A stretch of 64,000 bases of DNA, from contig NZ_CP037895.1 in assembly GCF_004634385.1 (NCBI RefSeq), positions 1,215,245-1,279,244 on the forward strand. The letters are read 5' to 3'. The notes beneath the pieces were generated by a model. That model was not told the origin of the DNA and searched no databases. It saw only the letters and a list, made by a program, of their open reading frames with translations. The DNA comes from Thermaerobacter sp. FW80. GTDB lineage: Bacteria; Bacillota; Sulfobacillia; Thermaerobacterales; Thermaerobacteraceae. Shown here one piece after another: positions 27,111 to 27,819 of this stretch (within the stretch, counting starts at the first letter, position 1; every line of letters starts with the position of its first letter). A program made the translations under genes and the position numbers.

Positions 27111-27572
27111 ATGCCGAAGGTTGGCGACGTGGCACCCGACTTCGCCCTGGTCGATCATCGCGGCGAGACCGTGCGCCTCAGCGACTTCCGCGGCCGCAAG
27201 GTCGTGCTCTACTTCTACCCGAAGGACGACACGCCGGGCTGCACCCGCGAGGCCTGCAGCTTCCGGGACGACTACCAGCGCCTGCAGGAGGCGGGCGCGG
27301 TGGTGCTGGGCGTCAGCCCGGACCCGGTGGAATCCCACGTGAAGTTCCGCGAGAAGTACGGCCTGCCGTTTCCGCTGCTGTCGGACCCCGACCACCAGGT
27401 GGCGGAACGCTACGGCGTCTGGAAGGAGAAGCGGATGTTCGGCCGGACCTACTGGGGGATCGACCGGACCACCTTCGTGATCGACGAGGAAGGGCGCATC
27501 GTCCAGGTGATCCGGGGCGTCAAGCCCGAGGAGCACCCCCAGCGGGCGCTCAAGGCGCTCGGCGTGGCGTAG
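27111..27572 (+). CDS. bcp: thioredoxin-dependent thiol peroxidase (Bcp/PrxQ)
   Basis: This 153-residue peroxiredoxin reduces hydroperoxides. The peroxidatic cysteine lies in DDTPGCTREACSF, with the second cysteine five residues on, which marks the PrxQ type with an internal disulfide. PKVGDVAPDFALVDH and VVLGVSPDPVESH are typical. The ATG at 27111 follows GGGAGGGAAGGG; an ATG at 27093 is in frame but would place that ribosome site inside the gene. It uses cysteine, not selenocysteine, although tRNA-Sec lies just downstream. Confidence 0.95.
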   Translation: MPKVGDVAPDFALVDHRGETVRLSDFRGRKVVLYFYPKDDTPGCTREACSFRDDYQRLQEAGAVVLGVSPDPVESHVKFREKYGLPFPLLSDPDHQVAERYGVWKEKRMFGRTYWGIDRTTFVIDEEGRIVQVIRGVKPEEHPQRALKALGVA

Positions 27573-27578
27573 GGGTCC

Positions 27579-27607
27579 ATGACGCCGTCGGGCCCGTCCG
27601 GTACACT
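27579..27607 (+). promoter_or_regulatory. possible promoter upstream of tRNA-Sec
   Basis: ATGACG (27579-27584) and TACACT (27602-27607) each match four of six consensus positions and are separated by 17 bp. Initiation here would give a leader of about 110 nt before the tRNA. Confidence 0.3.
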
Positions 27608-27725
27608 TCGGGTTGAGGGGACGGGACGGCGCAGGGCCTCTGCGCTGGAGCCCGCAGGCCCAGGACCTCTGCCGGCTGGCGGGTGCGAGGGGAGCGGCAG
27701 GGGCAGGAGGCCTGGGGGTCTTCGG

Positions 27726-27819
27726 GGGAGCAGCTGGTGACTGGTGTCGCCCCTGGTCTTCAAAACCAGTGGGGGATGGCGATACCGTCCCCGGTGGGTT
27801 CGATTCCCACATGCTCCCG
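27726..27819 (+). tRNA. selC: selenocysteine tRNA, anticodon UCA
   Basis: This 94-nt tRNA folds with acceptor strands GGGAGCAG and ATGCTCCC (seven pairs plus a possible G-A eighth pair) and a discriminator G. It has an extended 6-bp D stem (GGTGAC / GTCGCC) with a 4-nt loop and an anticodon stem CTGGT / ACCAG around loop CTTCAAA, with UCA at 27760-27762. A long variable arm (GGGGATGG ... ACCGTCCCC) and a T arm GTGGG-TTCGATT-CCCAC follow. The long D stem, long variable arm and UCA are diagnostic of bacterial tRNA-Sec. CCA is not encoded. selA, selB and selD are not in the window. Confidence 0.95.

Follow-up and report, generated by a model that had tools for sequence, protein, structure and literature searches.

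A selenocysteine tRNA gene standing alone

The window, the whole 64-kb stretch of DNA analysed here, contains a single tRNA gene, a full gene for selenocysteine tRNA (tRNA-Sec) found by ARAGORN on the forward strand. A peroxiredoxin gene lies upstream of it, and an alpha/beta hydrolase gene lies downstream on the opposite strand. The features at the locus are these:

27111-27572, + strand: PrxQ/Bcp-type peroxiredoxin with cysteine (NCBIfam NF006960, 171 bits)
27579-27607, + strand: tentative best sigma-70-like match, ATGACG-17-TACACT, 8 of 12 positions (hexamer matching)
27726-27819, + strand: tRNA-Sec gene (selC), body to G73 (ARAGORN, RF01852, fold, anatomy)
27726-27733, + strand: 5' acceptor strand GGGAGCAG, eighth base G (read from the sequence)
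27736-27751, + strand: D arm, 6-bp stem GGTGAC/GTCGCC with 4-nt loop TGGT (fold, sequence)
27760-27762, + strand: anticodon TCA (UCA in the RNA; ARAGORN, sequence)
27770-27793, + strand: long variable arm, 24 nt (fold, sequence)
27811-27819, + strand: 3' acceptor strand ATGCTCCC, its first A opposite G8, and discriminator G73

The initial annotation described a full tRNA-Sec with a UCA anticodon, a 6-bp D stem and a long variable arm, and proposed a check against a covariance model. Both the description and the check hold: the Rfam model RF01852 aligns end to end with 27726-27819, scoring 83.9 bits (E 7e-16) against a gathering score of 47 bits, and the arms can be read base by base. The predicted fold is the expected cloverleaf, at -51.1 kcal/mol (z -4.4), a stability reached by none of 200 shuffles. 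A CT linker joins the acceptor strand to the D stem; the anticodon loop is CTTCAAA; the T stem has 5 bp (GTGGG/CCCAC); and the discriminator, G73, is at 27819. The gene is thus like the bacterial tRNA-Sec of RF01852 in its UCA anticodon, eight-base acceptor strands, 5-bp T stem, 6-bp D stem, long variable arm and G73, but unlike it in two respects. The eighth acceptor pair is G.A (discussed below), and CCA is not encoded, the sequence there being GCAA. According to PMC5330540, CCA is encoded in 93% of bacterial tRNA-Sec; in the present genome at least three of the 19 other tRNA genes end in CCA (ends read by eye).

Such a shape might in principle belong to a tRNA of other identity: a selC*-type tRNA-Cys, an allo-tRNA or a tRNA-Ser. 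Look-alikes do exist in the class: RF01852 has 79 matches in the class sample, and in three of them the anticodon loop contains GCA. The selC*-type tRNA-Cys shares the overall tRNA-Sec-like shape but, according to PMC7609411, its discriminator is U73 and its anticodon GCA (or opal), whereas the present gene has G73 and UCA; on these two features selC* tRNA-Cys and allo-tRNA were set aside. The 6-bp D stem and eight-base acceptor strands also speak for tRNA-Sec, and against RF01852 the tRNA-Ser genes of this genome reach 51.1 bits at most, far below the present gene. Another identity is therefore extremely improbable. The three GCA-loop genes are second tRNA-Sec-like genes in their genomes (L216 in G087, L218 in G001, L220 in G082) and resemble selC* tRNA-Cys; ARAGORN calls two of them tRNA-Cys.

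The selenocysteine machinery elsewhere in the genome

The gene was said to be isolated, with selA, selB and selD predicted to lie elsewhere in the genome and their absence named as the finding that would make it a relic. The genome (3.04 Mb in three contigs, 98.8% complete) contains all three, each above its cut-off. The selA gene, at C1:2255326-2256684, scores 583.5 bits, its open frame running to 498 residues. The selB gene, at C1:2362328-2364253, scores 330.1 bits, or 363.6 when joined with a C-terminal piece, and lies within an open frame of 741. The selD gene, at C1:1820371-1821306, scores 397.2 bits and has one in-frame TGA. (The selB search also returned an EF-Tu match marked with one TGA; this was discarded, both EF-Tu frames running uninterrupted to their own stops.) From tRNA-Sec, at C1:1242970, the distances are ~0.58 Mb to selD, ~1.01 Mb to selA and ~1.12 Mb to selB. 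The gene does stand apart, then, as the only tRNA of the window and 0.6-1.1 Mb from its partners, but distance does not make it a relic.

A tRNA-Sec gene is likewise present in all four genus genomes and in 75 of the 121 genomes of the class sample. In eight other class genomes (G008, G019, G038, G083, G104, G108, G109 and G113) SelD contains a TGA but tRNA-Sec is not matched at E 1e-10; these assemblies are drafts split into many contigs, which makes gaps likely.

SelD as a probable selenoprotein

At least one selenoprotein was predicted, to be sought as an in-frame TGA followed by a SECIS hairpin. The selD gene itself has such a TGA, with a SECIS-like hairpin after it. Its TGA, read as U, falls at the active-site position in LTQLTGKGG-U-GCKLGP; a UxxK motif is listed for SelD in PMC13188914. 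The protein matches Sec-containing SelD (TIGR00476) in its U at KGG-U-GCK and its SECIS-like hairpin downstream, with no notable difference.

SelD occurs in 83 of the 121 sampled genomes of the class, and exactly one TGA is present in 97 of the 99 SelD places listed; the two without are in G019 and G073, each of which has another, TGA-bearing copy. Among 30 fetched SelD loci, 29 have the TGA at the U-x-x-K active site (28 by script, plus L152); the remaining one, L154, has no stop. In several class genomes, G106, G050, G051 and G067 among them, there are two or three SelD genes that contain an internal TGA.

The stretch 3' of the selD UGA reads GGCGCAGGTNCTGCGCC. An alignment of 26 of the 28 U-x-x-K sequences (two duplicates omitted) gives a hairpin of seven pairs in which 86.8% of cells are standard across the 26 distinct sequences. 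Thirteen cells are double changes, and none of 500 shuffles reaches as high; when the hairpin is slid, pairing is at most 50.5%. In the positive control, E. coli fdhF, the Sec codon is residue 140 and is followed by GGTTGCAGGTCTGCACC; the GCAGGT core is common to both hairpins. As the selD hairpin sits in coding sequence (LAQVLR) and encodes a conserved peptide, its conservation may be partly protein-driven and is by itself no proof of a SECIS; more telling are the double changes. For a first hairpin, located closer to the UGA (columns 16-28), covariation did not rise above that of shuffles.

With these elements in place, the tRNA would work as bacterial tRNA-Sec does: SerRS would charge it with serine; SelA would convert this to Sec-tRNA with selenophosphate from SelD; and SelB would bring the Sec-tRNA to UGA codons with a SECIS hairpin after them, one such codon being that in the genome's own selD. 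The four sel genes are simply dispersed in this genome. We conclude with high confidence that the locus is an ordinary, functional bacterial selC gene standing alone, and very probably not a relic, since selA, selB and selD are present, each over its cut-off. With its sel genes scattered, this high-GC lineage would then use UGA for selenocysteine, and gene calls in it that are truncated at TGA, SelD first, need rechecking.

The upstream region

The point on which a relic might be argued is transcription. A relic would be intact in sequence and no longer expressed or used, and the region before the gene lends this some colour. In three sister species (L026, L027 and L028) a promoter-like element, TTGCTG-18-TAGGAT with TG before its second hexamer, ends 16-21 nt before tRNA-Sec; in the window the corresponding stretch, within 27579-27725, has diverged and the element is unrecognisable. 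It is kept in the three sisters and apparently lost here. A different match, ATGACG-17-TACACT, ends 118 nt before the gene, ~100 nt further upstream than the sister element. It does not reach the cut-off of the standard scan, by which neither a promoter nor a terminator was called at tRNA-Sec. Shuffles of the same bases reach the promoter-match scores in 3 to 15 of 300 cases, so that these matches are a lead only. Yet this different match is at hand, the tRNA body is intact, the two differences from L028 in the variable arm both keep the stem pairing, and selA, selB and selD are intact, with SelD keeping its UGA and hairpin. Disuse is thus very improbable, although a shade less so than a mistaken tRNA identity; a pseudogene was dropped in view of the machinery present.

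The search for further selenoproteins

If selC functions, what does it serve? Six families were searched and 18% of the genome was scanned without finding a second selenoprotein. The eight AhpC/TSA matches in the genome have no stop inside, and selenocysteine in peroxiredoxins was dropped on that ground. FDH-alpha gave no match over the cut-off in the genome; one match below it, without a stop, reads like a non-Sec FdhF-like oxidoreductase, and a Sec formate dehydrogenase was rejected. Matches to CMD, rhodanese and HesB in the four genus genomes have no inside stops, and the UGSC search, which matched nowhere, controls included, is uninformative. A scan for frames with hairpins, run over 544 kb of the 3.04 Mb (18%), yielded 81 TGA candidates, 13 of them with a GG[TC]-loop hairpin. 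Of these 13, judged by eye, only selD is convincing; the other TGA candidates of the scan look, by eye, like ordinary stops or antisense frames.

One might therefore suppose a working tRNA in a self-sustaining loop, the selenocysteine machinery of the genus serving SelD alone. The absence of inside stops in AhpC/TSA, CMD, rhodanese and HesB, the lack of an FDH-alpha match over the cut-off, and the solitary place of selD in the 544-kb scan all fit. Against this, maintaining four genes would be a high price for an enzyme that serves only itself, and the searches touched six of the 119 families or subfamilies that the review PMC13188914 counts, the scan 18% of the genome. Exclusive service to SelD is accordingly unlikely, and less remote than a relic.

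The eighth acceptor pair

The acceptor strands GGGAGCAG and ATGCTCCC form seven standard pairs and G.A as the eighth; with the T stem the lengths are 8 + 5, comprising twelve standard pairs and this one purine pair. In the available text of PMC5330540 and PMC7609411, 8 + 5 standard pairs are usual and 7 + 5 forms rarer. A G.A eighth pair was not met there or in a limited literature search, although it may still be reported.

The pair had been called unusual. It is real, but it is the norm in the class: among 76 parsed class tRNA-Sec genes (76 of the 79 RF01852 matches of the GTDB class sample, parsed by a TTCA-type anticodon loop), the eighth pair is G-A in 55, G-C in 18, G-G in two and T-A in one. 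Counted by distinct sequence (62), the figures are 48, 12, one and one. All four genus members have G-A. These frequencies make it a feature of the lineage and not a flaw. The class-wide G.A pair bears, as a minor and testable question, on what SelB requires of the long acceptor helix. A joint proposal, that the genus machinery serves SelD alone and that the class G.A pair is accepted by SelB and SelA, a non-standard thirteenth pair being allowed, is unlikely too, and slightly more doubtful than SelD service taken singly.

Neighbouring genes

The peroxiredoxin upstream had been noted as a member of a family with known selenocysteine forms that here uses cysteine. The residue is as described: the gene at 27111-27572 has PGCTREAC, with Cys and no Sec. 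As a hint of selenocysteine use it carries no weight, being one of the eight AhpC/TSA matches with no inside stop. In all three other genus genomes a peroxiredoxin lies within 1.5 kb of tRNA-Sec, at 86-88% identity (tblastn); at none of 26 other tRNA loci compared is one found near tRNA-Sec. The adjacency is synteny at the level of the genus, and no link to selenium follows from it.

Far from tRNA-Sec, at 226-1528 on the reverse strand of the window, is an IS607-type TnpB (NF038280, 528 bits), an RNA-guided nuclease. Its 3' end overlaps a match to the Transposase-2 RNA (RF03015, 79.4 bits), which we take to be the guide-RNA end of the nuclease.
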